Of a stretch of 64,000 nt of DNA, positions 5,619-27,690 are shown piece by piece; position 1 is the stretch's first letter, and every line of letters begins with the position of its first letter. A program made the translations under genes and the position numbers. Origin of the DNA: Mucilaginibacter sp. Bleaf8. Its GTDB lineage: Bacteria; Bacteroidota; Bacteroidia; Sphingobacteriales; Sphingobacteriaceae. The stretch is taken from assembly GCF_018390515.1 (NCBI RefSeq), contig NZ_JAHBBK010000001.1:1302001-1366000 (forward strand). The letters are read 5' to 3'. Below the pieces are notes generated by a model. That model was not told the DNA's origin, did no database searches, and was given only the letters and a program-made list of their open reading frames with translations.

Positions 5619-5946
5619 TTTAATCTAAAGGTTCTTTAAAATTCCTTACCTAACTTTCTTTTCAGGTTATTGCTTGGCTAATTGAGTACATAGCTTCTTA
5701 ATTTGGCCTAAGCCTTTCGTCTTTATAAGACGCGAATTTCATTTTTTATAAATAGTGCCCTTTCTGTTTTCTGGCTTAAGAGCTCAGCTATATATTGATT
5801 TGAAGTCATGAAACTTTCACACAACTCCGTTACTACACTCCCTCACATCTGGTGCTGCACCTAAAAACCTGTAAATAATTTTTGGCACTTACTATCTTGA
5901 TATAATCCTAACATTGTGTTAAACCCGAAGTTTTAGGTTTGAGGCG
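5619..5946. other. Intergenic region upstream of first sigma factor operon
   Basis: About 330 AT-rich bases. It should contain the promoter for the sigma/FecR/SusCD operon. A TAGGTTTG at 5934-5941 matches the -7 consensus but lies only 5 bp before the ATG, too close for an ordinary leader. No gene recognised. Confidence 0.35.
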
Positions 5947-6549
5947 ATGTTTCACAGGTTACTTTCGGACGTGGATTTGTTAAGTAGGCTGCAGTCGGAT
6001 GACCAGCAAGCCCTGCTGCTGCTCATGAAAAAGTACGACCGGCAGCTGTTCAGGCACATCTATCATAAAACCCGGTCGACCGAAAATGCACAGGAGGCCG
6101 TGCAAGACATCTTTATATCTTTATGGAATAACCGCTACTCCCTGGTTATTACCGATTCATTGTTACCTTACCTTTTCAAAGCCGCAAAGCATAAGGCACT
6201 CGATTTCTACATCAACAACAGCAGGGAAATAATTAGTTACGAAGCCCTATTACCCGAATATGACCACCTGCTGGTAATGCCGCCCGATGAAGCCGTTACC
6301 GAAACAGAACTGCAGGTGTGGCTGGCAAACGAAGTAGAAAAGATGCCGGAAAACGTCAAAAAAAGTTTCCAACTAAGCCGGCAGGAGCACTTGCCGGTGC
6401 GGGATATCGCTCAAAAGCTCTCCTTATCTGAACAAACAGTCCGGAACAATCTTTCTATCGCCGTTAAACACCTTATGATGCGGTTTAAAAGAATGGAAAG
6501 CTCTTTATTCTTAATTGTACTGATTAGGATTTGGCTTTCCGGCCGATAG
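5947..6549 (+). CDS. ECF RNA polymerase sigma-70 factor (FecI-like)
   Basis: 200 residues, normal for the Bacteroidota ECF family. Region 2 is visible near residues 25-70 (LMKKYDRQLFRHIY, then AQEAVQDIFISLW) and region 4 near 130-175 (MPENVKKSFQLSR, IAQKLSLSEQTVRNNLS). Such factors direct RNA polymerase to the promoter of the adjacent SusC-type receptor genes when the FecR anti-sigma partner is signalled from the outer membrane. A FecR gene follows 82 bp downstream. The C-terminus ends in a hydrophobic stretch (SLFLIVLIRIWL), common in this family. Expected target: the downstream phosphoester locus. Confidence 0.92.
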   Translation: MFHRLLSDVDLLSRLQSDDQQALLLLMKKYDRQLFRHIYHKTRSTENAQEAVQDIFISLWNNRYSLVITDSLLPYLFKAAKHKALDFYINNSREIISYEALLPEYDHLLVMPPDEAVTETELQVWLANEVEKMPENVKKSFQLSRQEHLPVRDIAQKLSLSEQTVRNNLSIAVKHLMMRFKRMESSLFLIVLIRIWLSGR

Positions 6550-6631
6550 AAGCACCCTTAACATCATCCTAATAAACTCTTCATGATTATTTAACGGTAC
6601 AAACAGCCGTAACCGCCGATTATATGTACAG

Positions 6632-7609
6632 ATGAACGCAAAAGAATCGGCACATATTAAGGAACTCCTACAACGCTACCAAACCGGCACAGCTACGCCC
6701 GAAGAGCGGGAACGAGTTGAGCGCTGGTACGCACAGATTAATCAAGCCGAGCCACAACTTATACCCTATGCAGATGAGGAACGCCTGATAAAAAACACCA
6801 GGCAACAAGTGCTTAAACAAACCAACGTAAAAGTTGCGAGCCTGCATATCATGCGGCATAACTACTTCAAAGTAGCGGCTGTATTATTGCTTATTCCTTT
6901 TGCATACGTGCTGTATTCGCAGTTAAAAAAAACCCAAACACCGACCTCACAGCAATTTACTACCGAGCGGGGTGAACGCAAAATCATTACACTGCCTGAT
7001 AGTACCGAAGTTGTTCTTAATGCATCCTCCTCACTTGTTGTGAACAATGATTTTGGCACGAAGTTACGCCGGGTAAGCCTATCGGGCGAGGGATATTTCA
7101 GGGTAAAGCACGATGCCAGCCGGCCATTCATCATCCAAACCGGCAGGTTACAAACCCGCGTTCTGGGTACCGAGTTTGATGTACATGCTTATAAGAATGA
7201 ATCTAAAATCAAAGTAGCTGTTGTAAATGGCCGGGTAAAAGTGAGCGAAGAAAGGCAGCACAAGCTACAACAGTTAGGAGAAGTACTAACGCATAACCTG
7301 CTGCTGGTATACAACACCAAAACCCAGCGTCATGCTATCAGAACCGCCGATGCCGAAAAGCTGAGCGCCTGGCAAAACGGTGAACTTTATTTTGAAGATG
7401 CCAGCATTGGCGAAATAACCGCTACGCTATCGCGGCACTACAATACCAGCATTAAACTTAATGGTCAGTCCAAAGCTAACTGCCGCTATACCATTGGCTT
7501 TTCGCGTCAATCATTAAACAAAGTACTGGCCGTGTTAAGCCAGCTTACTGGTATGCATTACCAGATACAACCCAATCAAGTAATAATTCAAACAGATCAA
7601 TGCCATTAG
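6632..7609 (+). CDS. FecR-family anti-sigma factor
   Basis: 325 residues: a cytoplasmic N-terminal sigma-binding part (1-79), one membrane span (about 80-97, VAAVLLLIPFAYVLYS), a periplasmic FecR domain (about 108-205, including GERKIITLPDSTEVVLNASS) and a C-terminal DUF4974-type domain (about 250-323). Known mechanism: it holds the ECF sigma factor at the inner membrane until the STN domain of the partner TonB receptor contacts its periplasmic part. The partner sigma lies just upstream and the STN-bearing SusC follows 124 bp downstream, so the circuit is complete in this operon. Confidence 0.92.
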   Translation: MNAKESAHIKELLQRYQTGTATPEERERVERWYAQINQAEPQLIPYADEERLIKNTRQQVLKQTNVKVASLHIMRHNYFKVAAVLLLIPFAYVLYSQLKKTQTPTSQQFTTERGERKIITLPDSTEVVLNASSSLVVNNDFGTKLRRVSLSGEGYFRVKHDASRPFIIQTGRLQTRVLGTEFDVHAYKNESKIKVAVVNGRVKVSEERQHKLQQLGEVLTHNLLLVYNTKTQRHAIRTADAEKLSAWQNGELYFEDASIGEITATLSRHYNTSIKLNGQSKANCRYTIGFSRQSLNKVLAVLSQLTGMHYQIQPNQVIIQTDQCH

Positions 7610-7633
7610 CCATGTAACGCCATAAAACAGAAA

Positions 7634-7694
7634 CAGGCCGGTGCGCTAACACCTGCCTGCTTTAAGGACTGCTGAAGCAGCGGGCCTTGTTATT
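7634..7694 (+). promoter_or_regulatory. Structured fecR-susC intergenic segment, first operon
   Basis: Two possible hairpins: CAGGCCGGTG (7634-7643) with CACCTGCCTG (7650-7659, one mismatch), then AAGGaCTGC with GCAGcgggCCTT (7664-7688) running into GTTATTT. The end GGGCCTT followed by an AT-rich run is shared with the same interval of the second operon (24144-24190). It could be a weak terminator or attenuator separating regulator from receptor expression; function is inferred. Confidence 0.45.
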
Positions 7695-7733
7695 TCACAC
7701 GATTCCGAAAATCATATTAACAACAGAGTAAAA

Positions 7734-10700
7734 ATGAGAAATCTTTATCACAAAATCCCGGTCAGAAAAATTTCTGTTTTCCTGGTCATGCTCGTGATGT
7801 CAACCATCATCACTACACCTTCTTTTTCTGCCGAAGGGCAGAGCATGAACAGCATGCGCATTAGCCTTGCTGTGAAAAACGAAAGCATTAAAAACGTGCT
7901 CCGTATTATTGAACGCAAAACAGCATTCAAAATTGGTTACAACTCCAGCAACTTCAACCCCGATCGTACCGTTAGTTATCAGGCTAACAACGCATTGCTG
8001 ATCGATGTTTTAAAACATTTGCTTAAAGGATACCAGGGAAGCATAAAACAGGTTGATGAGCAGCATATTTTGTTACAGGTTGAAAAAGAAAAATCGGTAG
8101 TAGCCGCACCTGTTAACGCTGCACAAGCTACGGCAGCAAAACCGGTGAGCGGTACCGTGCGCGATGAGCGAGGCGAAACCCTGATTGGCGTAAATGTTAC
8201 CGTAAAAGGAACATCAACCGGTACCACAACTAACCTGAACGGCCAGTATACCATTAATGCTGACGAGAATGCCATATTGGTTTATACCTACATGGGATTC
8301 GACAGCCAGGAAATTGCCGTAAAAGGCCAATCCAATATTGATATAGTGCTAAAAGCCAACAACCAGTCATTAAAAGAAGTGGTGGTTGTAGGTTACGGTA
8401 CCCAAACACGTGCTACCATAACCGGCGCCATAACCAGTGTAGGTTTGGATAAACTTACATCACGCTCGTTCCGTAACATGCAGGAAGCGTTGCAAGGCAA
8501 AGCACCCGGCGTTGTTGTAAATAACAACGGTGGCGATCCGACAGCTACCCCACAAGTAAACATCCGTGGTATAGGTGGTATCAACGGCGAGCAGCCGCTA
8601 TATGTAGTGGATGGTTCGATATATTCTTCTGGCACCCCAATACTCAATCCTAATGACATTGAGTCGGTTTCAGTGCTAAAAGATGCTTCCGCTTCTATTT
8701 ACGGTGCGCGTGCATCAGGCGGGGTTATACTGATTACCACCCGCAAGGGTACCAAAGGCAAACTGGCTATTACATTTGACGCCAAATACGGTTTTGAATC
8801 GGCATGGCGCACTTTGCAGCCGTTAAACGCAAAGGAATATGCTGATGTATATAACCTGGCTACCGATAATGCAGGTAGAAAAAGAATTCCGGCATTTGAT
8901 GCTGCTGCTAATCCGGATGGCCAGATAACCCGTACCAACTGGGTGGATGAAATTTTCAGAACGGGCCATACACAGGACTATAATATTGGCTTAAGCAGCG
9001 GTAATGAAAATTCCAACTTTTACATGAGCTTCAATTACCGTAAGGGTGAAGGCATTCTGTTAAACACTTTTGCTGAGCGTTATGCGTTCCGTATTAACTC
9101 TGATCATAAGGTAAACAAATGGCTTAAGGTAGGCGAAAACCTATCATTCACCAACACCAATGGCAGAGGTACCAATACGTTTAGCGGTTATACAGGCGCC
9201 ATACAGGCGGCCATTTTTTACCCGCCAAGCATCACGCCACGTACCGAAACGGAGGCCTACTCTGGCCTGCCTATTCAGTTTGCCGCAGGCTATGGTGATG
9301 TGGTTAACCCTGTAGCTAATCTGGAACGTATTGATAGCAGCAACCCTATCAATACCATTATTGCCAATCCATATCTGGAGGCTTACATTTTACCGGGTTT
9401 AAAATTCCGCTCCAATTACTCAATCACCAAAACGTTTAATTATTTCAAAAAATTCAGCCCCATCGTACCTGAGGTTGGCAAGCCAAACTTAACCAACACC
9501 CTCGAAGAATCATCATCAACACAAAACAGTTTCCTGGCAGAGCAGACTTTAAATTACAACAAATTGTTTGGCAAGCATCATATTGATGTACTGGCGGGTT
9601 ACACCTACCAGAAAGATTCAAACCAGGGATTGTCTGCCACACTTTCGGGCTTTGGTAACGAGAATCCATTATTCCGCTATTTTAGTAACGGCACAGGTAC
9701 CCTGGTGAGACCATTTGATTACAGATCAAACAGCACAGTGATTTCCTATTTGAGTAGGATAAATTACGATTACGATGGTAAATACCTGTTATCGTTAACT
9801 GGCCGCCGTGACGGCACTTCGCTGGTTGCGCCACAAGAACATTTCCAAAACTTCGGTGCCATTTCGGGCGGATGGGTAATCAGCCGCGAGAACTTTATGC
9901 AACCCGTTACCTGGTTAAGTAACCTGAAGGTAAGGGCCAGCTACGGGATATTAGGTAATCTCTCTTCAGTAAGTACCAGCGCGGTATTCCCGAACCTGAA
10001 TCCAGGCATCGCTTATTTAGGGGCCGACCCTACACTGGTTAACGGCTATTACAGTTATGACCGCCCTAACCCGAACCTAACCTGGGCTAACTCTAAGCAA
10101 ACTGATATCGGTTTGGATTTAGGCATCCTGAATGAACGCGTTACTTTAACAGCCGATTACTTTGTTAAAAATACCGGAAACATGCTAACGAGCATCCCTG
10201 CTGGTATGGGTATAGGTTCTATTTGGGTAAATGGAGGCAAGGTGCGCGACAGAGGCATTGAACTGGGCATCAATTACAACAGTGATGTTAAAAAAGATTT
10301 TCATTATAGTATTGGTGGTAACCTGAGCACCATTAACAATAAGGTAATCTCTTTACCTAACAACGCCACCAGACTTAACTACATCGGGCCAAGCGTAAGA
10401 GGACTTTTATCACCAATCCAGGTAGAAGTTGGACAGCCGCTTTACTCTTACTACTCCATCAAAACCGATGGTCTGTTCCAAAGCCAGGATGAGGTAAATA
10501 ACCATAAGGCGGCAGATGGCACCTTAATTCAGGCTAATGCCAAGCCAGGCGATATTCGCTTTGTTGATGCTAACGGCAACGGAAAAATAGATGATGGCGA
10601 CCGTCAGTTTTTGGGCAGTGCTTATCCCAAGTTTTCTTACGGTTTGAGCTTTAATGCCAACTATAAAAACTTTGACCTGAACATATTTGCTCAGGGCGTA

Positions 10701-11123
10701 CAGGGTAACAAGCTATACAACGCTCTACGTTACACCAGTTTAAGCACAGGTGGATTAGGCCAAAACTACAATTTATTGAAAGATGTATTAAATGCCTGGA
10801 CGCCGCAAAACACAAACACCGACATACCACGCGTTACTGCCAGCGACGATAACGGCAACTATGGTACCAACTCCGATTTTTACATACAGAGTGGTTCATA
10901 CCTGCGCATCAAAAACGCAACGCTGGGTTATACATTTTCACCCAAACTTTTAACCAAAGCAGGCATAAGCAGTTTGCGTATATACTCAACGGCCAACAAC
11001 CTGTTCACCTTCACCAAATACAAAGGATTTGACCCGGAAGTTGGCTTTGATAACTACGGTATTGATGTAGGCCGCTACCCGCAATCACGGTCATTCATTT
11101 TTGGTATTAACCTCACTTTGTAA
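7734..11123 (+). CDS. SusC-type TonB-dependent receptor with STN signalling domain
   Basis: 1129 residues, normal for the family. Signal peptide about 1-33, STN (secretin/TonB short N-terminal) domain about 42-116, carboxypeptidase-like beta-sandwich about 138-210 (SGTVRDERGETLIGVNV), then the plug (LKEVVVVGYGTQ, plus VDGSIYSSGTPILNPNDIESVSVLKDASASIYGARAS split over the usual SusC signature) and a 22-strand barrel ending in a C-terminal aromatic/leucine strand (FIFGINLTL). It imports an oligomeric or complexed substrate over the outer membrane with the SusD partner encoded 24 bp downstream. The STN domain indicates it also signals to the FecR/sigma pair upstream. The substrate is inferred from downstream phosphoesterases to be a phosphate ester rather than a glycan. 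Confidence 0.93.
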   Translation: MRNLYHKIPVRKISVFLVMLVMSTIITTPSFSAEGQSMNSMRISLAVKNESIKNVLRIIERKTAFKIGYNSSNFNPDRTVSYQANNALLIDVLKHLLKGYQGSIKQVDEQHILLQVEKEKSVVAAPVNAAQATAAKPVSGTVRDERGETLIGVNVTVKGTSTGTTTNLNGQYTINADENAILVYTYMGFDSQEIAVKGQSNIDIVLKANNQSLKEVVVVGYGTQTRATITGAITSVGLDKLTSRSFRNMQEALQGKAPGVVVNNNGGDPTATPQVNIRGIGGINGEQPLYVVDGSIYSSGTPILNPNDIESVSVLKDASASIYGARASGGVILITTRKGTKGKLAITFDAKYGFESAWRTLQPLNAKEYADVYNLATDNAGRKRIPAFDAAANPDGQITRTNWVDEIFRTGHTQDYNIGLSSGNENSNFYMSFNYRKGEGILLNTFAERYAFRINSDHKVNKWLKVGENLSFTNTNGRGTNTFSGYTGAIQAAIFYPPSITPRTETEAYSGLPIQFAAGYGDVVNPVANLERIDSSNPINTIIANPYLEAYILPGLKFRSNYSITKTFNYFKKFSPIVPEVGKPNLTNTLEESSSTQNSFLAEQTLNYNKLFGKHHIDVLAGYTYQKDSNQGLSATLSGFGNENPLFRYFSNGTGTLVRPFDYRSNSTVISYLSRINYDYDGKYLLSLTGRRDGTSLVAPQEHFQNFGAISGGWVISRENFMQPVTWLSNLKVRASYGILGNLSSVSTSAVFPNLNPGIAYLGADPTLVNGYYSYDRPNPNLTWANSKQTDIGLDLGILNERVTLTADYFVKNTGNMLTSIPAGMGIGSIWVNGGKVRDRGIELGINYNSDVKKDFHYSIGGNLSTINNKVISLPNNATRLNYIGPSVRGLLSPIQVEVGQPLYSYYSIKTDGLFQSQDEVNNHKAADGTLIQANAKPGDIRFVDANGNGKIDDGDRQFLGSAYPKFSYGLSFNANYKNFDLNIFAQGVQGNKLYNALRYTSLSTGGLGQNYNLLKDVLNAWTPQNTNTDIPRVTASDDNGNYGTNSDFYIQSGSYLRIKNATLGYTFSPKLLTKAGISSLRIYSTANNLFTFTKYKGFDPEVGFDNYGIDVGRYPQSRSFIFGINLTL

Positions 11124-11147
11124 ACAAGTAACTATCCCGACAAGAGC

Positions 11148-12662
11148 ATGAAAAAGATTATAAACAATGTATTAATTCTATCAGTAAGCTTACTGATGGG
11201 CGCTTGTTCCAAAAAGCTGGACATCCTGCCAGAAGGTACGGTATCAGAGAACAATTTCTGGCTAACTCAAGCTGATGCGGAACAGGGCGTAAACGCCATG
11301 TACGAACCATTTGACGGTGAAGAGTTTTACGGCCGTGGTTATATGTGGTTCATTAACGCCAGCGATGATATGGTTACCGGCCGTATTAACACTAATGCCG
11401 ATGCCATTAAGAACTTCAGCAGCACCTATTATTCCAGCAGCTATACGGTTAACCAGTGGGACATGCGTTATTCCGTGATACGACGCGCAAATGACGTAAT
11501 CAACAAGATTCCGGCCATCAGCATGGACGGTTCATTGAAGAACCGCCTGCTGGGCGAAGCCTATTTTTTGAGCGGCCTGATGTATTTCCAGATGGCTTAC
11601 AACTATGCGGATGACCGCGCTGGTATGCCTATCATTACCCGCGGAAACAACAATGATCCCAACCCTACCCCGCGGGCGGCTAACATCACCGAAAATTACA
11701 ATTACATTGAAAGCGAGCTTAAAAAAGCGGCTAACCTGCTGCCGTATCTTGACCAGCTGGGCACAGCCAATTACGGCCGTCCGCATAAAGTAGCGGCCTG
11801 GGGGTATCTATCTAAAATGTATTTGTACAAGAAGGATTATGCCAATGCCGAAAAATATGCCGATTCGGTTATGACCTTTGGGAAACGGGCGCTGCTTAAT
11901 AATTATGCTGACGTATTTAAGGCGGCTAACAATTACAGTTCAGAGTATATTTGGTCGGCGGTAAGCACTACCAAAGGCGCTTCGGGCTGGGGCAGCATAT
12001 TACCGGGTGTTATGCTCGAAAATAAAGGCTGGGGCAAGTACAATGGCTGGGGCTACTATCAACCTACCAAAGAGTTGTATGATGCGTTTGAAAACGGCGA
12101 CCAGCGCCGCGAGGCAACCATTCTGAAACCCGGTGATAAGTTCACCTATTTGGGTGTGGAAACCACTTACAGTTCTGTGAATAGCTTATCGGGCTACCAA
12201 TTCAATAAATACATGGACCCTTTTAAGCCGGCAAATGCTATCGGCAGTACCATAAGTTCAAACGGCGACCATCCGACCACCAACTTAAACGTGCCCTTGC
12301 TACGTTATGCAGAGGTGATTTTGATTAAAGCGGAAGCCGAATTAATGCAGGGTAAAAATGCGGATAAGGAAATCAACATGATTCGCCAGCGGGCAGGTTT
12401 ACAACCGATACAAGGCGCCAACATGGCCGAACTGAAGAGGCAGCGCCGTTGCGAGCTGGCCGGCGAGTGGGCCGACCGTCATCGCGACCTGGTGCGTTGG
12501 GGCGATGCGCAGGCTGCTTATGCGCAACCCTTGCATGGCGTAAACGGACAGGTTATTTGGCCGGCGCGCAATTTCAACCCGTCGGTGCACCATGTGTGGG
12601 CTGTACCTCAAAAAGAGATTGACAGAAGCAACGGTGTGATTAAACAGAACCAGGGCTGGTAA
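11148..12662 (+). CDS. SusD/RagB-family substrate-binding lipoprotein
   Basis: 504 residues. Lipoprotein signal with lipobox Cys at residue 20 (LLMGACSKKLD), TPR-like helices typical of SusD (LLGEAYFLSGLMYFQMAYNYADD, VAAWGYLSKMYLYKKDYANAEKYADS in separate pieces) and a C-terminal half with LLRYAEVILIKAEAEL and IRQRAGL. It is a surface-exposed lid for the SusC barrel encoded just upstream and gives first contact with the substrate. A strong terminator lies 13 bp after the stop, so transcripts for the enzymes further down may need read-through or their own promoter. Confidence 0.93.
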   Translation: MKKIINNVLILSVSLLMGACSKKLDILPEGTVSENNFWLTQADAEQGVNAMYEPFDGEEFYGRGYMWFINASDDMVTGRINTNADAIKNFSSTYYSSSYTVNQWDMRYSVIRRANDVINKIPAISMDGSLKNRLLGEAYFLSGLMYFQMAYNYADDRAGMPIITRGNNNDPNPTPRAANITENYNYIESELKKAANLLPYLDQLGTANYGRPHKVAAWGYLSKMYLYKKDYANAEKYADSVMTFGKRALLNNYADVFKAANNYSSEYIWSAVSTTKGASGWGSILPGVMLENKGWGKYNGWGYYQPTKELYDAFENGDQRREATILKPGDKFTYLGVETTYSSVNSLSGYQFNKYMDPFKPANAIGSTISSNGDHPTTNLNVPLLRYAEVILIKAEAELMQGKNADKEINMIRQRAGLQPIQGANMAELKRQRRCELAGEWADRHRDLVRWGDAQAAYAQPLHGVNGQVIWPARNFNPSVHHVWAVPQKEIDRSNGVIKQNQGW

Positions 12663-12675
12663 TTTCGTTAAATTT

Positions 12676-12712
12676 AACAGATCGCGGGTTTATGACCCGC
12701 GATCTGTTTTTA
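12676..12712 (+). terminator. Strong intrinsic terminator between susD and phosphatase fusion
   Basis: A perfect 14-bp stem (AACAGATCGCGGGT, 12676-12689, with its complement 12695-12708), 5-nt loop TTATG and a T-tract. Only 18 bp separate its end from the TTG start of the next gene, an unusual position inside a functional locus. Confidence 0.85.
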
Positions 12713-12726
12713 ATCCTATTTATACT

Positions 12727-14580
12727 TTGAAAAAGAACCTTTTACTTTCCTTATTGGCGCTTGGCTTAAGCCAGACGGGAGTTTTTGCGCAGTCGCTAAA
12801 TGCTAACCGTGCGCATAGCCATAACGATTACAAGCAAAACATCCCATTCTTACAAGCTTATTATTCCGGGGCCGGTTCTATTGAGGCCGATGTATTTTTG
12901 CTGAATGGTAAGCTTTATGTAGCACATGAGCGTAACGAAATTGCCGAGGGTCGTACGCTTGATGAGCTTTACCTGAAACCACTGGCTGCGTTGTTCCGTA
13001 AAAACGGCAACCGCCCGTATGCAGATTCCACCCAAAGCCTGCAGCTGGTGATTGATATTAAGGAGGATCATGCACATGTAATACCGGCTTTAATCAACGA
13101 GCTGAAACCTTACCGCGATGTATTTACCAGCACTGCCAACGCACACGGTGTAAAAATTGTACTAAGCGGCGATATGCCGCAGCCTGCACAATACAGCCAG
13201 TATCCTGCCTATATTTCTTTTGATGGTCGCCCAAATATCAATTACACGCCTGACCAGCTAAAGCGTATTGCCATGATTAGCGATGAGTTGAGCACTTACA
13301 CAGTGTGGAATGGAAAAGGTACGCTCACCCCGCCCGATTCTGTAAAAATTACTGCGCTGATTAATGCGGCGCACCAACAGCACAAACCCTTCCGCTTTTG
13401 GGCTACGCAGGATAGCCCAAACACCTGGATCCAACTCGAAAAATTAGGTGCAGACTGGATCAATACCGATCACCCGCAGCAGGTACACGACTTTTTCATC
13501 AACCGCAATAAGCTGGAATACAACAACCCTACCCCTTACCCAGTTTATCATCCTACCTATAAAACCGATGGCACGGCCAAAAAAGTAAAAAACGTAATTC
13601 TTCTTATTGGCGACGGCATGGGGCTGGCGCAGATACAAGCAGGGTTAACCGCCAACCATGGGCAGCTCAATATGCTGCAGTGCCATTACGCCGGCTTTTC
13701 GCAAACATGTGCCGCCAATTCCGACAATACCGACTCGGCGGCCGGCGCTACCGCCATGGCCTGCGGACAAAAAACCAACAACCGCTACATTGGCGTCAAT
13801 ACACAAGGTCAACCCCTGGTTAACTTACCCGATACACTGGCACATTACGGCATTAAAAGCGGCATCATCAGCAGCGGCGATATTACTGATGCTACACCGG
13901 CAGGTTTTTATGCGCACCAGTCAGAACGTTCATCATCCTTACCCATTGCCGCCGACTTTTTGCAAGGCCATGTGGATGTGCTGATTGGTTCTAACCAGAA
14001 AAGCTTCTTTAACAATACAGACAAACAGCTAACAGCAAAGCTGCAAGAGAAAGGCTACCACATCAGCACTTCACTATCTGACTTAGCCACTGCTAAATCT
14101 GCTAAACAAGTAGTATTACTACCTGATGCGGAAACCCGGCCGATAAAAGATGGCAGAGGCGATATGCTGGGCCAATCGCTCAAGCAAACGCTGCGCTTAT
14201 TGGCAGATAACAAAAAAGGGTTCTTTATTATGGCCGAGGGTGCTCAGATAGACTACGGCGGCCATGCTAACAATTTACCATATGTAATTACCGAACTACA
14301 CGATTTTGATAAAACGGTAGCGGAGGCCTTGAAGTTTGCCGATGCAGACGGCGAAACGTTGGTAGTAATTACTGCCGATCATGAAACCGGTGGCTTAAGC
14401 CTATTAGATGCTTCGACAGCTAAAGGCATGGTACTGGGCAACTTTAGCACCAACGACCATACCAGCATCAACGTACCGGTATTTGCTTACGGGCCCGGAG
14501 CCAGCGAGTTTATCGGCACTTATCAAAACACCGAAATATTCAATAAAATTCTGAAATTGATGGCCCAAAGCCATAAGTAA
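12727..14580 (+). CDS. Exported phosphodiesterase (GDPD/PI-PLC-like)-alkaline phosphatase fusion
   Basis: 617 residues from a TTG start that directly precedes a good signal peptide (KKNLLLSLLALGLSQTGVFAQ). Residues about 25-260 form a PI-PLC/glycerophosphodiesterase-like domain: AHSHNDY (His30, His32), the acidic pair in SIEADVF (Glu53, Asp55) and YVAHE (His67). Residues about 285-617 form an alkaline phosphatase: metal Asp in IGDGMG (294-299), nucleophile Ser337 in TDSAAGATA, and later metal ligands in EGAQIDYGGHAN, ITADHETGG and NDHTS. Both active sites look intact. Inferred activity: cleave a phosphodiester, then release phosphate from the resulting monoester in the periplasm or at the surface. 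Placed after SusCD and before another phosphoesterase. No ATG gives an equally good signal peptide. Confidence 0.88.
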   Translation: MKKNLLLSLLALGLSQTGVFAQSLNANRAHSHNDYKQNIPFLQAYYSGAGSIEADVFLLNGKLYVAHERNEIAEGRTLDELYLKPLAALFRKNGNRPYADSTQSLQLVIDIKEDHAHVIPALINELKPYRDVFTSTANAHGVKIVLSGDMPQPAQYSQYPAYISFDGRPNINYTPDQLKRIAMISDELSTYTVWNGKGTLTPPDSVKITALINAAHQQHKPFRFWATQDSPNTWIQLEKLGADWINTDHPQQVHDFFINRNKLEYNNPTPYPVYHPTYKTDGTAKKVKNVILLIGDGMGLAQIQAGLTANHGQLNMLQCHYAGFSQTCAANSDNTDSAAGATAMACGQKTNNRYIGVNTQGQPLVNLPDTLAHYGIKSGIISSGDITDATPAGFYAHQSERSSSLPIAADFLQGHVDVLIGSNQKSFFNNTDKQLTAKLQEKGYHISTSLSDLATAKSAKQVVLLPDAETRPIKDGRGDMLGQSLKQTLRLLADNKKGFFIMAEGAQIDYGGHANNLPYVITELHDFDKTVAEALKFADADGETLVVITADHETGGLSLLDASTAKGMVLGNFSTNDHTSINVPVFAYGPGASEFIGTYQNTEIFNKILKLMAQSHK

Positions 14581-14593
14581 CATTTGCATCCGC

Positions 14594-15499
14594 ATGGAAA
14601 GAAGATCTGCACTTAAAACCTTAGGCGGCCTGGTTGTAGCACCCCAGCTTGCCTTAGCCACATCGCCAACCGAAAAGAAACGGGTGCTTCGGGTTGCACA
14701 CATTACCGATGTGCATTTAAAGAATGAGTTAGGTGCACCCGAAAAGTTTGTTAAGTGCCTGCACCACCTGCAAAAACAGCAACCCAAGGTTGATATGATT
14801 TTGAACGGCGGCGATATTGTTTTTGATATGAACAAGGAAAACCTTAGCACCATCAACAAACAATGGGAGCTTTGGCATGGTATTGTAAAATCAGAGTGTA
14901 GTTTGCCCATGCGCTATTGCCTGGGCAATCATGATATCTGGTGGTATGAGAACAACAAAGGGACGGCTGTGTATGGTAAGCAGTATTCGCTCGATCAGCT
15001 TAAACTTTCCAAGCCCTACTACAGCTTTACGCAAAACGGCTGGAAGTTTATTGTGCTGGATAGCGTGCACCTGGACATTGACGGCACCTGGTATATCGGC
15101 AAGCTTGGCGACGAGCAATTTACCTGGCTACAAAACGAATTACAGCAAACCAATCCACAAATGCCGGTACTGGTATTGTCGCACATCCCCATCCTTACGG
15201 CTACGTTAATGGTTGAGGACAATATTGTGAACAAATGGCAAATGCTGGGCGGCGATATGCATACGGATACAGCCAAAATTATTAACCTGTTTTACCAGCA
15301 CCCCAATGTAAAGCTATGCCTGAGCGGCCACATACACCTGCGCGATAAAGTGGTATACAACAATGTAACCTACATTTGTGATGGTGCCGTAAGCGGCGCC
15401 TGGTGGAATGGCAACCGAAGGGAAACCGCACCGGGCTATGGCATTATTGATTTATACAGTGATGGTAGTTTTGAAGAGCAGTATGTTAATTACTTATAA
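14594..15499 (+). CDS. Exported calcineurin-like metallophosphoesterase
   Basis: 301 residues. The N-terminus MERRSALKTLGGLVVAPQLALA looks like a twin-arginine (Tat) signal. All motifs of the binuclear metallophosphoesterase fold are present: ITDVH (Asp39, His41), NGGDIVFD (Asp74), LGNHD (Asn112, His113), LSHIP and SGHIHL. It hydrolyses phosphate esters; the exact substrate is not visible. It starts 13 bp after the fusion phosphatase and so is probably co-transcribed. Export by Tat would mean metal loading in the cytoplasm, while the fusion phosphatase appears Sec-exported. A convergent hairpin at 15510 ends the locus. Confidence 0.9.
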   Translation: MERRSALKTLGGLVVAPQLALATSPTEKKRVLRVAHITDVHLKNELGAPEKFVKCLHHLQKQQPKVDMILNGGDIVFDMNKENLSTINKQWELWHGIVKSECSLPMRYCLGNHDIWWYENNKGTAVYGKQYSLDQLKLSKPYYSFTQNGWKFIVLDSVHLDIDGTWYIGKLGDEQFTWLQNELQQTNPQMPVLVLSHIPILTATLMVEDNIVNKWQMLGGDMHTDTAKIINLFYQHPNVKLCLSGHIHLRDKVVYNNVTYICDGAVSGAWWNGNRRETAPGYGIIDLYSDGSFEEQYVNYL

Positions 15500-15564: not shown

Positions 15565-16038
15565 TTATTGAATTTTTATACTAAGGCCTTTAATGGTTTG
15601 CCACCCTTCTTTATCGGTAAGGCGTATCAAAAAGTGATAATCGCCGGGATCAATATCAGCTGGTACATTAATTTCGGCATTTACCTGATAAGAGGTTTGG
15701 CCGGCAGGGATAGAGAAATCTTTAATCAACAGAAAAGGCTTCACAGGAGTTTTAATGGGATCCATGCCACAATCAGAAACCTCGGTACTGTGCGTATGAT
15801 GGTCAAAGTTGTGATGGATATCCACGCTTACCGAGCCTAACTGGGCGTTATCTGTCAGGTTAGCTTTGAAGTTGAACTTCTGGCCCCGTTTTACCACGCT
15901 GCACTGCTTTGGAAACGCATCTGCCGTGCTGATGTCAATAACCGGGTATTCGGTATCTATTTTCTCGTTACTATCTTTTTTACAAGCGCCTGCACTAACG
16001 ATAAAAATGAGGCACAAAGCGATCAGCTGTCTTTTCAT
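15565..16038 (-). CDS. DUF4625-like lipoprotein, single domain
   Basis: 157 residues. Lipobox Cys at 19 (FIVSAGACKKD) followed by one beta-sandwich of the DUF4625 type, with the histidine-rich strand HHNFDHHTHS and a closing segment GDYHFLIRLTDKEG. It is the last gene of a minus-strand group behind a TonB receptor and a two-domain paralogue. The His cluster suggests metal binding at the outer membrane surface or periplasmic face; this is inference. No enzyme motif. Confidence 0.75.
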   Translation of the reverse strand: MKRQLIALCLIFIVSAGACKKDSNEKIDTEYPVIDISTADAFPKQCSVVKRGQKFNFKANLTDNAQLGSVSVDIHHNFDHHTHSTEVSDCGMDPIKTPVKPFLLIKDFSIPAGQTSYQVNAEINVPADIDPGDYHFLIRLTDKEGWQTIKGLSIKIQ

Positions 16039-16068
16039 AATATTGTTTAATTAATAAATAACTTAAGC

Positions 16069-16095
16069 AGGCCGGAGCAATAAATTGCCCGGCCT
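16069..16095. terminator. Hairpin between the two DUF4625-like genes
   Basis: AGGCCGG(A)GCAA pairs with TTGCCCGGCCT, loop TAAA, one bulged A. It lies inside the presumed operon with no T-tract; it may trim or weaken expression of the last gene. Confidence 0.4.
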
Positions 16096-16149
16096 CTTGG
16101 TCGATAAGTTCTACAGATACTTAGATTTACTTAAAGCACCCGTTACAGA

Positions 16150-16869
16150 TCAGGGTTTATCAAAATGCTCTTCAAATTCGTTTTCTTTACCTGCCTGGTC
16201 AACCACTTTCAGGTGCACATGGTAGTGGCCTTTATGGGCAGCGGTAACATCAACATGTTTGTGCAGGTTGTAACTGGTTTGGCCAACCATGGCAGCATCG
16301 GTATACACAAATTCCTTTTCAAAGCCATCGCCATGCACTTCAATGGTTATACTGGCAATTTTGTTAGGTGCTTTAATAGCAGCTTCGGCGTGCAGATCGT
16401 TGCCGGCTGCATTCAGGCCAACTTCAAAACCGGTAACCGAGGGCAGTGTAGGGTCTGATTCTAATTTCAGTTCTGATTCGGCTTCGGTAACCTTACCATT
16501 AGCATCGGTTACTTTGATGTGCACGTGGTAATCGCCCAAAGCAGCATCGGCAGGAACGTCAACATGTTTATGAAATTCAGCATTTTTTAAACCTGCCAGG
16601 CCCTCTGTGTAGGTGGTATTTACTTTCCATCCGGTACCACTTTCGGGATGAATGTCTAACACTACACTGGCGATATTTGCCGAAGCCGTAATTTTAGCTT
16701 CCAGATGCAGGTCATTACCTGGATGGGCAATTTTATTGTTGCCAATGCCAATCTCCAGCCCTTCAATAGTTGGTGCAGTGGCATCTTCGTTTTTATTGTC
16801 ATCCTTTTTACATGCCGAAAAGGCTGCGGCGACAAAGAAAAGCACAGCAATGAGTTTGTTGTTTTTCAT
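16150..16869 (-). CDS. DUF4625-like lipoprotein, tandem domains
   Basis: 239 residues with lipobox Cys at 20 (AAAFSACKKDDNK). Two DUF4625-like beta-sandwiches in tandem, about 30-130 and 138-237. Repeated signatures are PTIEGLEIGIG and PSVTGFEVGLN at the domain starts, HKHVDVPADAALGDYHVHIKV and HKHVDVTAAHKGHYHVHLKV (each in separate stretches) at the ends. The paired His residues of the HKHVDV and YHVHxKV strands could form metal sites. It lies 42 bp downstream of the TonB receptor gene, so it is probably the receptor's surface lipoprotein partner. Metal capture is inferred, not shown. Confidence 0.78.
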   Translation of the reverse strand: MKNNKLIAVLFFVAAAFSACKKDDNKNEDATAPTIEGLEIGIGNNKIAHPGNDLHLEAKITASANIASVVLDIHPESGTGWKVNTTYTEGLAGLKNAEFHKHVDVPADAALGDYHVHIKVTDANGKVTEAESELKLESDPTLPSVTGFEVGLNAAGNDLHAEAAIKAPNKIASITIEVHGDGFEKEFVYTDAAMVGQTSYNLHKHVDVTAAHKGHYHVHLKVVDQAGKENEFEEHFDKP

Positions 16870-16911
16870 GATTTTGCTTTTTGTGTTAAATTGATGTTTA
16901 TTACTTATTTG

Positions 16912-19335
16912 TTAATTTTTAGATGAAACAAGCTGAAAAGGCACTTTTAGCGACAGTATGATGTTACGACCGGCCTCGGGCAGGTTAATGAGCCGGTAAA
17001 AGCTGGTATGATTCAAATAGCGGGTATTGAACAGGTTTTGTGCCTGCAAGCTTACCATCACAGGCTGGTTGTATAACCTGATGCGGGTTCCCGCCTGTAC
17101 GTTTACAATATTGTATCCTGGTGACACCAATTCGGGCGGTACGATACGGTTTTGTTTAGAGGTTAACCGGTAATCAACCGATAGGTAGGTGTTGTTTAGC
17201 CCTCGTATTACCTGCGGCGACCATGTCAGATTGAGCAGCAATGATGCCGGCGGCGAAAAGGGCAAGGTGAATCCCTTTTTATCGCCCGATAGCTGGCGTG
17301 CATACACATATTCGCCCAACGCCTCCGCAGTCAGGCTTTTAAGCAGCTGGTATTTAACATCCACTTCGCCGCCATAGCGCGCAACACGGCTTTGTGTATA
17401 TTGAAATACCTGGTTACCGGCACCGTAGAAGTAATCATGTGCCGAGGTTGGATTCAGGTAGATATAGTTAGAGAAATAGTTGTAAAAAGGGCTTACCTGA
17501 ACCGACCATCTGTTATGTGCAAAGCCCACGCTCAGATCGGCTTGGTAGGATTGCTCGGGCGACAAATCAGCATTACCTTTTTCATAACTGAAGTAATGAT
17601 AATTTACGCCATTGGCACCCAACTCCTTGGCAATAGGCATCCTGAAGCTTTTACCTACATTGGCTTTGATGGTAAAGTCTTCCAGATTATAGTTCATACC
17701 AACCGACCACACCAGGCTGTTGAAAGTTCTGGTCTTATTATCAGCCCGTACCAGGTACTCGGGCGTTCTGGTATTATCCTCGTCGCGGTATGACGGAAAC
17801 CAATCCGCATAGCGGAACATGTTTATCCGGCCATAATCATACCGCAATGCGCCATGCAATAGTATACGGTCATTCAACTCAAACTTGTCGTATACAAAAG
17901 CGCCAGCCAGCGTTTGGTTAAAGGCCGGTACTAAAAAACTCCAGCCGCTTCTGTCATTGTCTTGATACTCGCCATTGATGCCGGCAGTCACGGTGTGCTT
18001 ACCAAGCGATATTACATCTCTGAAGTTTAACGAATACACATGTTTATCAAACTCCCGCTCCAGCGTAGATGGGATGCGAACGCGCATGCTATCGGGATAA
18101 TTGGGCGGCATGTAGCCATGATTTATATAGTTGCTGAACTCTTGCCTGAAATTGCGCTGGTATCCCAGCTCCATTTCCAGCTGATGATTTTCCACATGAT
18201 AAGTACTGCGGTTGATAACCTTGAAGTGATTTACCTCCTGGCTGGGCAACTGCACATCACGGCTGGAACTATCGTGCAACCGGGTATCAACCTGCCGCGG
18301 TTCCAAACCATGTGCATTAGCAAAAAAGCCGCTTTTACTGTAAACGTTACTTACATAAAATACCGAACGAAAACGATCACTAACATATCCGGTACTAAAA
18401 TGCAGGCCGGTTTCGGTTCCGGCAGTGTTACGCAGGTGATTTTTATATAACGAAACCGGATAGTTGTAAACGGAAACCTTATCAGTTGGTACCCGGTAAT
18501 CACCATAATTCTGGTAAGTTGCCCTTGCATCAAAAAACCATACCTTACTACGCCCATACAGATTGACCGAGGTGCCGTACAGGTTATTATTCGTTTTACC
18601 AATCAGATCAACCGAGCCACCCATGGTATGGGCAGCTGGTATAGGTGCCTGCTTTACATTAATCACACCGCCAATAGCGTCGGACCCATATATAAATGAG
18701 GCTGCACCTTTAATAATCTCCACCTCGCCGGCGGCAAACTGGTCTAACTCCAGCCCATGATCGGCACCCCACTGCTGGCCTTCATGCTTCACGCCTTTAT
18801 CAACCACTACAACACGGTTAAAACCTAAACCGCGTATAAGCGGCTTAGATTGCCCCGAACCAATGCCTATGGTTTTGATACCGGGCAGTCGCGATAGGGT
18901 TGCCATCAATGATCCGCCCAGGTTGCGCTGTATAAAGTCGCTGTTTACTACCTCTACGTTTAACGATTCTTCTTTCTTGCGCAGCTGTGCATATTGGTCT
19001 GTTATCACCACATCATGCAAATGATGCCGCGATGGGGTTAGTATAAGCACGATGGGTTGTGTAACCGGCAAATAAACCGTAGCTGTAGCCGTATGATAAC
19101 CATCAGTAGATGCAGAAACATTATAATTACCCCCACTCAGGCCGGTAAACCGGAAATTCCCCGCAGAGTCGGTTAAAAGGGTCCGGGAACCGGGTTGCAG
19201 AATTACTTTTACCGCTTGCAAAGGCCGTTGCGCTACGTTGCGAACGTTGCCCGACAGGGTTAACTTTTGAGCCTGAGCACTGCCCAAGCAGAGCAGATAC
19301 AGGCAAATCATACCAATAAACTTCATTAGCCGCAA
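16912..19335 (-). CDS. TonB-dependent outer membrane receptor, probable metal uptake
   Basis: 807 residues, well short of a SusC protein. Signal peptide about 1-22, a carboxypeptidase-regulatory-like domain about 25-105, plug with LKGxKTIGIGSGQSKPLIRGLGFNRVVV-type core (GIKTIGIGSGQSKPLIRGLG) and GASSFIYGSDAIGGVINV-like signature (GAASFIYGSDAIGG), then a 22-strand barrel. The plug resembles siderophore, vitamin or zinc receptors rather than glycan SusC proteins, and there is no SusD. With the His-rich lipoproteins downstream and the DUF2946-like protein upstream, a metal ion or metal complex is the best guess. Copper, zinc or another metal cannot be told apart. Confidence 0.88.
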   Translation of the reverse strand: MRLMKFIGMICLYLLCLGSAQAQKLTLSGNVRNVAQRPLQAVKVILQPGSRTLLTDSAGNFRFTGLSGGNYNVSASTDGYHTATATVYLPVTQPIVLILTPSRHHLHDVVITDQYAQLRKKEESLNVEVVNSDFIQRNLGGSLMATLSRLPGIKTIGIGSGQSKPLIRGLGFNRVVVVDKGVKHEGQQWGADHGLELDQFAAGEVEIIKGAASFIYGSDAIGGVINVKQAPIPAAHTMGGSVDLIGKTNNNLYGTSVNLYGRSKVWFFDARATYQNYGDYRVPTDKVSVYNYPVSLYKNHLRNTAGTETGLHFSTGYVSDRFRSVFYVSNVYSKSGFFANAHGLEPRQVDTRLHDSSSRDVQLPSQEVNHFKVINRSTYHVENHQLEMELGYQRNFRQEFSNYINHGYMPPNYPDSMRVRIPSTLEREFDKHVYSLNFRDVISLGKHTVTAGINGEYQDNDRSGWSFLVPAFNQTLAGAFVYDKFELNDRILLHGALRYDYGRINMFRYADWFPSYRDEDNTRTPEYLVRADNKTRTFNSLVWSVGMNYNLEDFTIKANVGKSFRMPIAKELGANGVNYHYFSYEKGNADLSPEQSYQADLSVGFAHNRWSVQVSPFYNYFSNYIYLNPTSAHDYFYGAGNQVFQYTQSRVARYGGEVDVKYQLLKSLTAEALGEYVYARQLSGDKKGFTLPFSPPASLLLNLTWSPQVIRGLNNTYLSVDYRLTSKQNRIVPPELVSPGYNIVNVQAGTRIRLYNQPVMVSLQAQNLFNTRYLNHTSFYRLINLPEAGRNIILSLKVPFQLVSSKN

Positions 19336-21906: not shown

Positions 21907-22166
21907 GTTTAACGCCAAAATCAACAATGTGATCGGTTGTTATACAAGGCTTAAATAATACGTAGAGTTAATGTGTACTAAAATTAAATCTTAGATAAAA
22001 AGTTTTATGTGGACATTTTAAACTAATCAGTTGAATGCTTTACCTAAATAAGTTTACAGAAACTTAAATCTGATTATAGCGATAGTTAATTTGCTTTTTT
22101 ACAAAAAGTAATATTATTTTACCATTGCTTAAGGGGTTAAGCCTCTATAGCCTACCAATTACATCT

Positions 22167-22754
22167 ATGCTTATTGAGACATTTGCTAATGAGAAGGCGT
22201 TGTTGCAACAAGTTGCTGCAGGTAATGAGCAGGCTTTTCGCTGCCTGTTTATGCAGTATCACCAGTTGCTGGCAACTCACATATACCGCATTACCGAATC
22301 AGCCGAAGTGGCAGAGGAGATCGTACAGGATGTTTTTTTAAAAATATGGCTTAACCGCCATACGCTGCTCACCGTGGCTAATTTTAAAGCGTACTTATTT
22401 GTAGCATCCAAAAACCATGCGTTGAATGAGCTACGCAAAATAGTACGTGAGCGCATAAAGCAGAATAGTTATATTACTGAAGCTATCCGGCATAATAACG
22501 AATTAACAGAAGTTAACCATACTTATTATGCCTTGCTCGATAAAGCTATTGACCAGTTACCGGCTCAGCAAAAAAAGGTATACCTTTTGAGCAGACATGA
22601 ACGGCTTAAATATACCGAGATTGGCCAGCGCTTAGGTATTTCAACCGAATCGGTTAAAAAATACCTGCAACTGGCCAAATCGTCCATCAACGGTTTTTTG
22701 CTTAAAAACCAAGAGGTTAGTTTATCCTTGTTATTGATCATAAAATTTTTATAA
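22167..22754 (+). CDS. ECF RNA polymerase sigma-70 factor (FecI-like)
   Basis: 195 residues from ATG at 22167; an in-frame TTG at 22125 would add 14 residues with no homology value, so the ATG is preferred. Region 2 is near residues 15-70 (GNEQAFRCLFMQYH, VAEEIVQDVFLKIWLNR) and region 4 near 130-180 (LPAQQKKVYLLSRHERLKYTEIGQR in pieces, STESVKKYLQLAKSSI). It pairs with the FecR gene 109 bp downstream and should drive the second SusCD operon. Confidence 0.92.
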   Translation: MLIETFANEKALLQQVAAGNEQAFRCLFMQYHQLLATHIYRITESAEVAEEIVQDVFLKIWLNRHTLLTVANFKAYLFVASKNHALNELRKIVRERIKQNSYITEAIRHNNELTEVNHTYYALLDKAIDQLPAQQKKVYLLSRHERLKYTEIGQRLGISTESVKKYLQLAKSSINGFLLKNQEVSLSLLLIIKFL

Positions 22755-22862
22755 TTTTTTCTGAGCAGGCATACCCCCTTTTTAGCACGCGTATGTGTCT
22801 TTAAGAATAGAGAGCCCCCCGGCTACTGATTAACCAATTGCCCTAACAGGTTTTATTCTTGC

Positions 22863-24059
22863 ATGAACAATAAAAAATTCAGGTTATTATACCTGTTCGA
22901 TAAGTATTATAAAAAAACGGCATCATCCGCTGAGATTGGTGAGTTGTTTTATTTATTGAACCTGGACAGGCATGATCGTGAAACAACCTTATTGCTTAAA
23001 AAAGCATGGGATGAACTACAGGCCGACACGAAGATCATACCTGCAGAAAAAAGCGAGGCTATACTAAATAACATCTTGCATAAAGCAAATCAACCGTTAC
23101 TAATCAGTACACCCCAATCCAATCCTAAATCAAACTTGTGGTTAAAGCTCAGCATAGCAGCTTCCGTTTTGCTGGTTGGTGGGTTAACCGTATTCATAAA
23201 ATTTAAAGCGTCAGATCAAACCCTACCTAAGCATAGGATAGCTAAAGTAGAAACTACCTCACAGCATGAGCGCCACCCCGTTCTGAAACTATCGAACGGA
23301 ACGATGATTGTTTTGGACGAAGCGCATAAAGGCTTGCTCAGCAAGCAGGGCGGTGTTGAAATAAGCAAGAGTAAGGAAGGCATGCTGGTATTTAACACGA
23401 TCAGCCATAACACTGCAAAAACAGTTTACAGCACCATAGCCACGCCGGCCGGCATCCAGTATCAGGTTGTATTGCCCGACGGATCAAAGGTGTGGCTTAA
23501 TGCCGCAAGCTCTTTAACTTTTCCATCCAGCTTTACCGGCAAAACCCGCAATGTACAGGTGGCGGGCGAGGCCTACTTTGAGGTTGCAAAGAATGCAAAG
23601 CAGCCATTCGTTGTTCAATCGGGCCTTACGCGCATCCAGGTAGTGGGAACACATTTCAATGTGCGTAATTATGAAAACGAGTCTGCCGCAAAAACCACCT
23701 TGTTGGAGGGCGGCATCCGCATTACCGATGGCCGGGACGAAAACATTTTAAAACCAGGCGATCAGGCTTCTATCCGTACTAATAGCAGCATGCAAATTGA
23801 ACGCGATGTAAACACCGCCGAAATTACCGGCTGGAAAAACGGCGTGTTTGTATTTGATGATGCAACCATAAGTGAAGTGCTGCAGGAGGCTGCAAGGTGG
23901 TATGATCTGAATATTATTTACCAGGGCAAAATACCCGCAAAAAAATTCACCGGCACCCTACCCCGCAAAGTGAAGGTAGATGAGCTGCTTGAAATGCTCA
24001 GGTATACAGGCGTAAACCTGAAAGCCGATGGCAAAAATATCATCGTTTTAAACCAATAA
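22863..24059 (+). CDS. FecR-family anti-sigma factor
   Basis: 398 residues. Cytoplasmic sigma-binding part about 1-90, membrane span about 92-113 (LWLKLSIAASVLLVGGLTV), a linker with a LSNGTMIVLDEA strand, a FecR domain about 185-290 (ATPAGIQYQVVLPDGSKVWLN, VAGEAYFEV) and a C-terminal DUF4974 domain about 325-395. It is longer than the first FecR by an extra periplasmic linker. It should restrain the sigma factor encoded upstream and respond to the STN domain of the SusC encoded downstream. Confidence 0.92.
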   Translation: MNNKKFRLLYLFDKYYKKTASSAEIGELFYLLNLDRHDRETTLLLKKAWDELQADTKIIPAEKSEAILNNILHKANQPLLISTPQSNPKSNLWLKLSIAASVLLVGGLTVFIKFKASDQTLPKHRIAKVETTSQHERHPVLKLSNGTMIVLDEAHKGLLSKQGGVEISKSKEGMLVFNTISHNTAKTVYSTIATPAGIQYQVVLPDGSKVWLNAASSLTFPSSFTGKTRNVQVAGEAYFEVAKNAKQPFVVQSGLTRIQVVGTHFNVRNYENESAAKTTLLEGGIRITDGRDENILKPGDQASIRTNSSMQIERDVNTAEITGWKNGVFVFDDATISEVLQEAARWYDLNIIYQGKIPAKKFTGTLPRKVKVDELLEMLRYTGVNLKADGKNIIVLNQ

Positions 24060-24089
24060 CTATATACCAATTTAAGTAAACCCGTAAGT

Positions 24090-24119
24090 ATGAAAAAGCA
24101 ATTTTACCACTCCGGCTGA
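24090..24119 (+). other. Nine-codon mini-ORF between fecR and susC
   Basis: ATG then KKQFYHSG and stop. It lies in the leader of the second SusC gene, just before a structured segment. The peptide looks like the opening of some Bacteroidota exported receptors, so it may be a remnant start or a leader peptide. Translation is unproven. Confidence 0.25.
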
Positions 24120-24143
24120 ATGTAGTTGCCCATAAACAAAAGA

Positions 24144-24190: not shown

Positions 24191-24238
24191 TCACCATTTT
24201 ACAAACTGACAATTTATTAACCCAATCTCTACTAATCT

Positions 24239-27664: not shown

Positions 27665-27690
27665 CCCGGAATCTTTGAAAAACAATAACA

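Follow-up and report, generated by a model that had tools for sequence, protein, structure and literature searches.

The closest described relative of the locus considered here is PUSII of Flavobacterium johnsoniae (PUS, phosphate utilization system), in which Fjoh_3252-3249 encode FecR (Fjoh_3252), PusC2, PusD2, and PhoA1, the last carrying both pf00245 and pf13653 (PMC8115612). According to that paper, the two PusCD complexes of F. johnsoniae are induced solely by phosphate depletion, a condition in which PUSII and with it the FecR gene is strongly upregulated; import followed by periplasmic degradation of organic phosphorus is proposed. Here we discuss a six-gene operon of Mucilaginibacter sp. 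Bleaf8, at 5947-15499 of a 64,000-nucleotide stretch of contig NZ_JAHBBK010000001.1 (positions 1,302,001 to 1,366,000 of the forward strand; hereafter the window). The operon has a SusC/SusD pair with FecR upstream of SusC and a PF13653-carrying PhoA directly after SusD. For these four genes, order and domains, which are the basis of the comparison, are exactly those reported for PUSII, and phosphoesterase-centered SusCD loci are therefore already in print. The term "Pho box" does not occur in the main text of PMC8115612, and a search of the open-access literature found no pho box described for the Sphingobacteriaceae. What appears to be new is a candidate Sphingobacteriaceae PHO box, together with another SusCD-phosphoesterase locus of this genome that also bears the box. 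Collectively, the data make it likely that the operon is a PUSII-type system for organic phosphodiesters that is wired into the phosphate regulon; organic molecules that contain phosphorus are very probably a food source of this soil bacterium once phosphate is exhausted.

The six genes are all on the plus strand and separated by short gaps, and the fusion gene begins 64 nt after the SusD gene (Table 1). Pfam and NCBIfam models bear out the first-pass annotation of this DNA, which had read a set of sigma factor, FecR, SusC, and SusD followed by an exported diesterase-phosphatase fusion and an exported calcineurin-like phosphoesterase. The sigma factor is of the extracytoplasmic function (ECF) type, and the fusion and the phosphoesterase have 617 aa and 301 aa, respectively. 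Its label "STN-SusC" holds for the SusC part (NCBIfam SusC/RagA TIGR04056, 885 bits; cut-off 368), while the STN part is weak, PF07660 scoring 24.3 bits against a cut-off of 28.4. The description of a locus built around phosphoesterases rather than glycosidases also stands, as no glycosidase family matched any of the six proteins in Pfam at E≤0.001. Export is predicted for the fusion (type-I-like signal peptide), SusD (lipobox), and the phosphoesterase (twin-arginine start, MERRSALK) from general signal rules. TatC is encoded in the genome (228 bits).

The gene order is conserved among relatives. The survey comprised 80 loci; a full-length fusion is present in 45 (L001-L044 and L064, the "named fusion loci"). 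The closest named fusions are from Mucilaginibacter (71-76% identical), and most Pedobacter loci have the order sigma-FecR-SusC-SusD-fusion. The phosphoesterase gene adjoins the fusion on its 3′ side in eight of the 45, all from Pedobacter and one of them split. Among 251 genomes of the family, the fusion finds matches at E≤1e-20 in 178 (matches to the N-terminal or the C-terminal part only are included), and there are 63 SusD relatives at E≤1e-70, counting the one in the window. SusD lies directly upstream (3-251 nt) in 51 of the 63, which exceeds chance, in 49 before a fusion and in two before a stand-alone gene for the N-terminal domain. For the close orthologues of SusD (40 at ≥57% identity, including that of the window, and one split copy), the fusion adjoins in 39 of 41. 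Across the class, matches at E≤1e-90 were found in 13 of 345 genomes, and in one of these the match is limited to the phosphatase half; in Chryseobacterium (L037) and Cruoricaptor (L038), a SusD that is 61-62% identical stands beside the fusion. The suggestion of the first-pass annotation that the locus serves TonB-dependent capture of phosphorylated organic compounds is supported by the order kept in 39 of 41 loci and, by analogy, by PUSII, where the same order and domain pair are induced by phosphate depletion. Nor do orthologous SusCD loci consistently lack phosphoesterases; the two exceptions are taken up below. As a separate observation, three Mucilaginibacter loci (L003, L005, and L007) have the fusion without SusCD, beside a gene for a 458-aa exported-looking protein, with a box-like promoter of its own (8.2, 20.9, and 16.8 on the matrix introduced below).

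Upstream of the sigma gene lies the candidate PHO box, which consists of 7-bp direct repeats with an 11-bp period and is followed, after an 8-bp spacer, by the putative −7 element TAGGTTTG (Table 1). When the regions upstream of the sigma genes in the Pedobacter loci are aligned, they share the block TTAACAT-TAAG-GGAATAT, which stands 7-8 nt ahead of TAnnTTTG. In the window, the repeat takes the place of a −35/−33 element, a layout that resembles a PHO box; in E. coli, too, the −35 region is usually replaced by the pho box (PMC4971064). Only 5 nt separate the end of the −7 element from the ATG annotated as the sigma start; consequently, either the message would be leaderless or the real start would be the downstream GTG at 5971, which may be the true sigma start.

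The link to phosphate comes from the sharing of this element with the operon of the phosphate transporter PitA. A pattern derived from the promoter of the Bleaf8 operon was searched in 16 genomes, with the reversed pattern as control, and gave 24 hits vs four. Fifteen of the 24 precede DUF47-PitA, four precede the sigma gene of the same operon in Pedobacter-like relatives, and five precede other genes. Hence, 15 of the 16 genomes, Bleaf8 included, have the box before the DUF47-PitA operon (DUF47 and PHO4 were confirmed with Pfam in Bleaf8 and assigned by likeness in the others). In all five genomes examined, the gene preceding DUF47-PitA is a similar-looking kinase gene, and the two kinases that were scanned are histidine kinases with PnpS and PhoR as best models, both under the cut-off. 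In Bacteroides fragilis, BF3715, a "putative phosphate/sulphate permease", is reported to drop 52-fold in a phoB mutant (PMC3547664). In ten genomes of the same genus, the pattern gave 41 hits vs four for the reversed control; of 30 sites fetched, none lies inside an open reading frame of ≥100 aa, and eight precede DUF47-PitA (in eight of the ten genomes). Others stand before genes for a type I phosphodiesterase, a nuclease, and an orphan fusion, and also before genes without a clear link to phosphate (TPR regulators, ComA, DUF6340). Putative regulators of about 490 aa recur in several genomes 20-26 nt behind the box motif, at L278, L274, L283, L202, and L212-L214, TPR repeats being confirmed for L278 only.

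A matrix built only from DUF47-PitA sites (eight distinct ones) has its top score in the window, 12.1, at 5904-5941, and a second-order Markov null gave one position of ≥12 in 3 million. In the 45 named fusion loci, a score of ≥8 was reached upstream of 20 of 24 sigma genes, 10/26 FecR genes, 4/14 orphan fusions, and 3/8 metallophosphoesterase genes. No such site was found before SusC (0/26, and 0/2 where SusC comes first), SusD (0/30), or fusions within operons (0/31). Unrelated control reading frames reached 8 in five of 384 cases, and Fisher's test, which ignores relatedness, gives p 1e-25 for the enrichment before sigma genes. These results bear on the view that the locus is induced by its substrate and run solely by surface signaling through sigma, FecR, and SusC, independent of the phosphate regulon. 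Such a model would account for the complete sigma/FecR set upstream of SusC and for its conservation in most Pedobacter loci; however, it leaves unexplained both the PitA-type box directly before the sigma gene in those 20 loci and in the window and the phosphate response of PUSII, its FecR gene included (PMC8115612), and we regard it as highly improbable. The first-pass annotation had placed the operon under a receptor-sensed sigma circuit instead of, or besides, the phosphate-starvation regulon. A PHO-box-like promoter, common to the PitA operon and directly upstream of the sigma gene, speaks against "instead of", while "besides" is possible, the sigma/FecR pair being complete and conserved.

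The same matrix was applied to the SusD loci of this 5.03-Mb genome as a control that is less circular than the scoring of the named loci, with one stretch for each of the 39 SusD hits and the promoters of each gene chain scored. The top rank (29.6) is taken by a locus in which sigma-FecR-SusC-SusD is followed by a gene of the endonuclease/exonuclease/phosphatase (EEP) family (PF03372). The window locus, with fusion and metallophosphoesterase, is second (12.1), and in the third (8.0) the gene chain ends with SusD. The chance that two given loci would occupy ranks 1 and 2 of 39 is 1 in 741, the choice having been made after the enzymes were seen. Only these two score ≥12, and both have phosphoesterases, as judged from seven BLAST queries that other phosphoesterases could escape. 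L342 (rank 4, 7.8), which has a metallophosphoesterase-like gene, was not counted since its "site" spans the SusC start codon and its operon resembles one for peptidoglycan recycling. The order of the EEP locus recurs in G171, G201, and G082, each with a box (PF03372 was confirmed for G000, which is Bleaf8, and for G201). Box-bearing sigma-FecR-SusC-SusD loci were also seen in G159, with a metallophosphoesterase of PF00149, and in G164, with one of PF16370/PF16371 and a PF12771-type SusD; in G243 a box-like site precedes a SusC-SusD pair without a phosphoesterase after it.

This control also bears on whether the repeat reports phosphate at all. Another response regulator might bind there, or the repeat might be a strong-promoter element of a general kind; in either case its presence at PitA would be no phosphate signal, and the several hits before genes lacking a clear phosphate link would be expected. 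We consider this unlikely, given that just two of 39 SusD loci reach 12, both with phosphoesterases, that hits also precede the phosphodiesterase, nuclease, and orphan fusion genes, and that 7-bp direct repeats replacing the −35 region fit the E. coli-type pho box layout (PMC4971064). The data raise the possibility that the Sphingobacteriaceae have a class of SusCD loci governed by the phosphate regulon, in which one PHO-box promoter fires the ECF sigma/FecR pair and the enzyme cargo is interchangeable: a GDPD/PhoA fusion (alone or accompanied by a GpdQ-like enzyme), an enzyme of the EEP family, or other metallophosphoesterases. Such loci would work as a two-key switch, low phosphate permitting and imported substrate amplifying expression, and the box alone would predict which of the dozens of SusCD loci in a genome scavenge phosphorus. 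We put this generalization forward tentatively and would back it a little short of evenly.

Several observations weigh against placing the operon in the phosphate regulon as a phosphodiester system. When the columns of the matrix were shuffled, 28 of 200 matrices attained 12.1 somewhere in the window, and the hit in the window alone is therefore suggestive and not proof. The matrix test is also partly circular because the PitA sites were found with the pattern of this operon. Outside the Sphingobacteriaceae the box was not detected, the loci of Chitinophaga (L035), Dyadobacter (L044), Chryseobacterium (L037), and Cruoricaptor (L038) all scoring <5, as do the five Maribacter orphan fusions (L039-L043) with the PitA matrix. 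Within the family, only 15 of the 46 fusions that are not beside a SusD orthologue reach 8 (7 of 12 and 8 of 34 in its two parts), a set that overlaps the named loci in part and has some members in other SusCD operons. No PhoB homologue in the genome exceeds the cut-off of TIGR02154 (best 227.5 vs 296.2). Two of the 41 close SusD orthologues, G201 and G147, do not adjoin a fusion. In G201, an orthologous sigma-FecR-SusC-SusD operon has no gene like the phosphoesterases of the window alongside, and the fusion is on another contig; in G147, SusC-SusD stand alone and the fusion is elsewhere. Both retain a box-like site ahead of the leading gene, with a score of 14.0 in G147 and only 5.9 in G201, though the pattern search also finds the G201 site. 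Finally, none of the ten distant SusD relatives has a box of ≥8 (highest 5.2), and in three of them (G235, G184, and G019) a glycoside hydrolase gene lies on the upstream side of the operon.

No gene was named as PhoB, since the best TIGR02154 match is below the cut-off and 62 places in the genome match. PstS-type genes were unusable as a second marker of the regulon, PF12849 giving one gene at 81 bits and three weak hits; the 81-bit gene adjoins reading frames that we presume to be ExbD-like.

The 12 SusD relatives that are not beside a fusion comprise the two close orthologues and the ten distant ones (38-51% identical). In G028 (SusD 49% identical; L145, 967-11068), a phospholipase C gene (PF04185/PF05506) precedes the sigma gene, with a PI-PLC gene behind SusD, and in G087 (L148) a phospholipase C gene precedes the sigma gene. 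These operons are likely phospholipid-targeting SusCD loci that lack a PHO box, and their phospholipase genes fit lipid head groups as substrate. In the remaining five distant relatives, neither a phospholipase nor a glycoside hydrolase was found among the subset of neighbors that was scanned or compared. Accordingly, the fusion-plus-box unit is a feature of the close orthologues, and the wider SusD family has both phospholipid and glycan contexts. SusCD pairs usually import glycans (PMC8115612), and the window locus might accordingly target a phosphorylated glycan, teichoic-acid-like or capsular, with phosphoesterases that trim the imported sugar polymer and carbon as the main reward. The glycoside hydrolase genes near three distant relatives agree with this, but the six proteins include no glycosidase, the box is common to PitA, and two other distant relatives adjoin phospholipase genes, which together make a glycan locus very unlikely.

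The enzymes themselves are consistent with a phosphodiester system. The AlphaFold2 model of the fusion (pLDDT 87.4) superimposes on TAB5 alkaline phosphatase 2w5x with Z 47.5 and rmsd 2.1 over 330 aligned residues, and TAB5 is also the nearest solved relative of the PhoA domain by phmmer; the fold-search matches covered residues 275-617 only, i.e., the phosphatase half. In an alignment of 21 fusions drawn from the 45 named loci and the window (L040, which contained a stop, was left out), D336-S337, R401, E504, D509, H513, D551, H552, and H578 of the PhoA domain are invariant. These are the equivalents of Ser102, Arg166, Glu322, Asp327, His331, Asp369, His370, and His412 in E. coli numbering, and the catalytic and metal site is complete. 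HSHNDY, E53, D55, and H67 of the N-terminal domain are likewise invariant. This domain matches GDPD_2 (PF13653, 30 positions) at 29.2 bits (cut-off 27) and PF03009 at 14.9 bits (below its cut-off of 23.6); against the PDB, sequence searches gave weak matches only, and a profile search found the GDPD structure 3no3 only at E 0.02. For the phosphoesterase, the model is weak (pLDDT 63.7) and its best Foldseek match is GpdQ (2dxl, E 5.8e-8). With 48.3 bits against a cut-off of 225 for the CpdA model NF008359, the product of the last gene is a metallophosphoesterase that is not filed as CpdA.

We therefore favor the following model for the phosphodiester system. When phosphate falls, a PhoB-type regulator would bind the repeat at 5908-5925 and the housekeeping sigma factor would read TAGGTTTG and start the operon, so that the direction of regulation would be induction by low phosphate; these steps are suggested by the shared cis element. 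The ECF sigma/FecR pair, signaled via SusC, may add a second, substrate-dependent input. The target promoter of the encoded ECF sigma factor was not found. The substrate that SusD and SusC would bind and take up is a small phosphodiester, and glycerophosphodiesters derived from lipid head groups are the most likely candidates. Cleavage of the diester would take place in the periplasm, through the GpdQ-like phosphoesterase and the GDPD-like domain, after which the PhoA domain tethered to the latter would take the phosphate off the monoester, as folds and conserved catalytic residues suggest. The phosphate would then enter via PitA, whose operon has the same box.

Table 1. Features of the Bleaf8 operon and of the second box-bearing SusCD locus (window positions unless another contig position is given)
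Feature	Position	Strand	Basis or remark
Candidate PHO box and −7 element	5908..5941	+	CTAACAT-TGTG-TTAAACC (5908-5925), then TAGGTTTG at 5934-5941
ECF sigma factor	5947..6549	+	Sigma70_r2/r4_2, PF04542/PF08281; best NCBIfam TIGR02985, under its cut-off
FecR-type anti-sigma factor	6632..7609	+	PF04773 (FecR) and PF16344 (FecR_C)
Two predicted stem-loops, FecR-SusC gap	7630..7688	+	Aligned gaps of relatives; fold
SusC-type TonB-dependent transporter, weak STN-like N-terminal extension	7734..11123	+	Plug and CarboxypepD_reg-like
SusD-type surface lipoprotein	11148..12662	+	PF07980 (SusD_RagB), PF14322 (SusD-like_3); lipobox LMGAC
Exported fusion, GDPD-like diesterase domain and PhoA-type alkaline phosphatase	12727..14580	+	PF13653 and PF00245; TTG start
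GDPD-like N-terminal domain of fusion	12790..13512	+	GDPD_2
Alkaline phosphatase domain of fusion	13561..14559	+	phmmer match 2w5v, 247.7 bits
Tat-type calcineurin-like phosphoesterase, GpdQ/CpdA-like	14594..15499	+	PF00149 (Metallophos)
EEP SusCD locus (L288)	G000:C1:306000-324500	–	Top PHO-box-like promoter of 39 SusD loci

Other features in and around the operon deserve mention. The gap between FecR and SusC (7610-7733) has inverted repeats common to several relatives (L009, L141, and others), e.g., CCGGTactgatcagatcagcACCGG in Pedobacter, and folds with −28.1 kcal/mol (a single fold, with no shuffle control). The predicted stem-loops may possibly act as an attenuation or mRNA-processing element. 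A separate sigma-dependent promoter in this gap was considered and dropped, as the alignment gave inverted repeats and no visible common promoter, and the PitA matrix found none in 26. Converging on the operon at 15565-19335 (minus strand) are two DUF4625 lipoprotein-like genes and a gene for a ZnuD/heme-type TonB-dependent receptor; in Pedobacter nototheniae (L019), genes for a related receptor (61%) and a DUF4625 protein (69%) are found on the downstream side of the fusion, in the same orientation as the fusion gene. A role in supplying metal to the metal-dependent phosphatases is possible. Another sigma-FecR-SusC-SusD set at 22125-29205 (plus strand) has no enzyme gene behind SusD, and a weak box-like match (8.0) that overlaps its sigma start lacks TAnnTTTG.

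Members of the Bacteroidota have dozens of SusCD pairs per genome with no assigned substrate, and Bleaf8 with its 39 SusD hits is one example. A promoter element that parts phosphorus scavengers from glycan users would offer a cheap means of substrate assignment. Moreover, the locus would extend the Flavobacterium PUS concept of Lidbury and colleagues to soil Sphingobacteriaceae, with relevance to organic phosphorus turnover. The question of sigma circuit vs phosphate regulon is reduced to one promoter that can be tested directly.

How, then, does the locus relate to known systems? PUSII differs from it in its host, Flavobacterium as opposed to a member of the Sphingobacteriaceae, and the Bleaf8 locus adds a GpdQ/CpdA-like phosphoesterase. 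PUSI of F. johnsoniae, in which PusCD1 is found with an ECF sigma factor and two phosphodiesterases, one called CpdA, is similar in that SusCD is combined with an ECF sigma factor and a CpdA-type phosphoesterase and is upregulated at phosphate depletion; the PhoA fusion of the window locus is not among the components listed for PUSI (PMC8115612). A carbohydrate polysaccharide utilization locus with sigma/FecR shares the sigma-FecR-SusC-SusD core, whereas carbohydrate-active enzymes, by which such a locus is recognized, are absent from the six window proteins. For the regulation, vreAIR (PUMA3) of Pseudomonas aeruginosa sets a precedent: there, an operon of ECF sigma factor, anti-sigma factor, and receptor-like protein is under PhoB via a pho box (PMC4971064). 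It differs in that it is described as a virulence regulon, in that the account given in PMC4971064 describes no SusCD-type import or phosphoesterase operon, and in that PhoB is needed at the sigma target promoters too.

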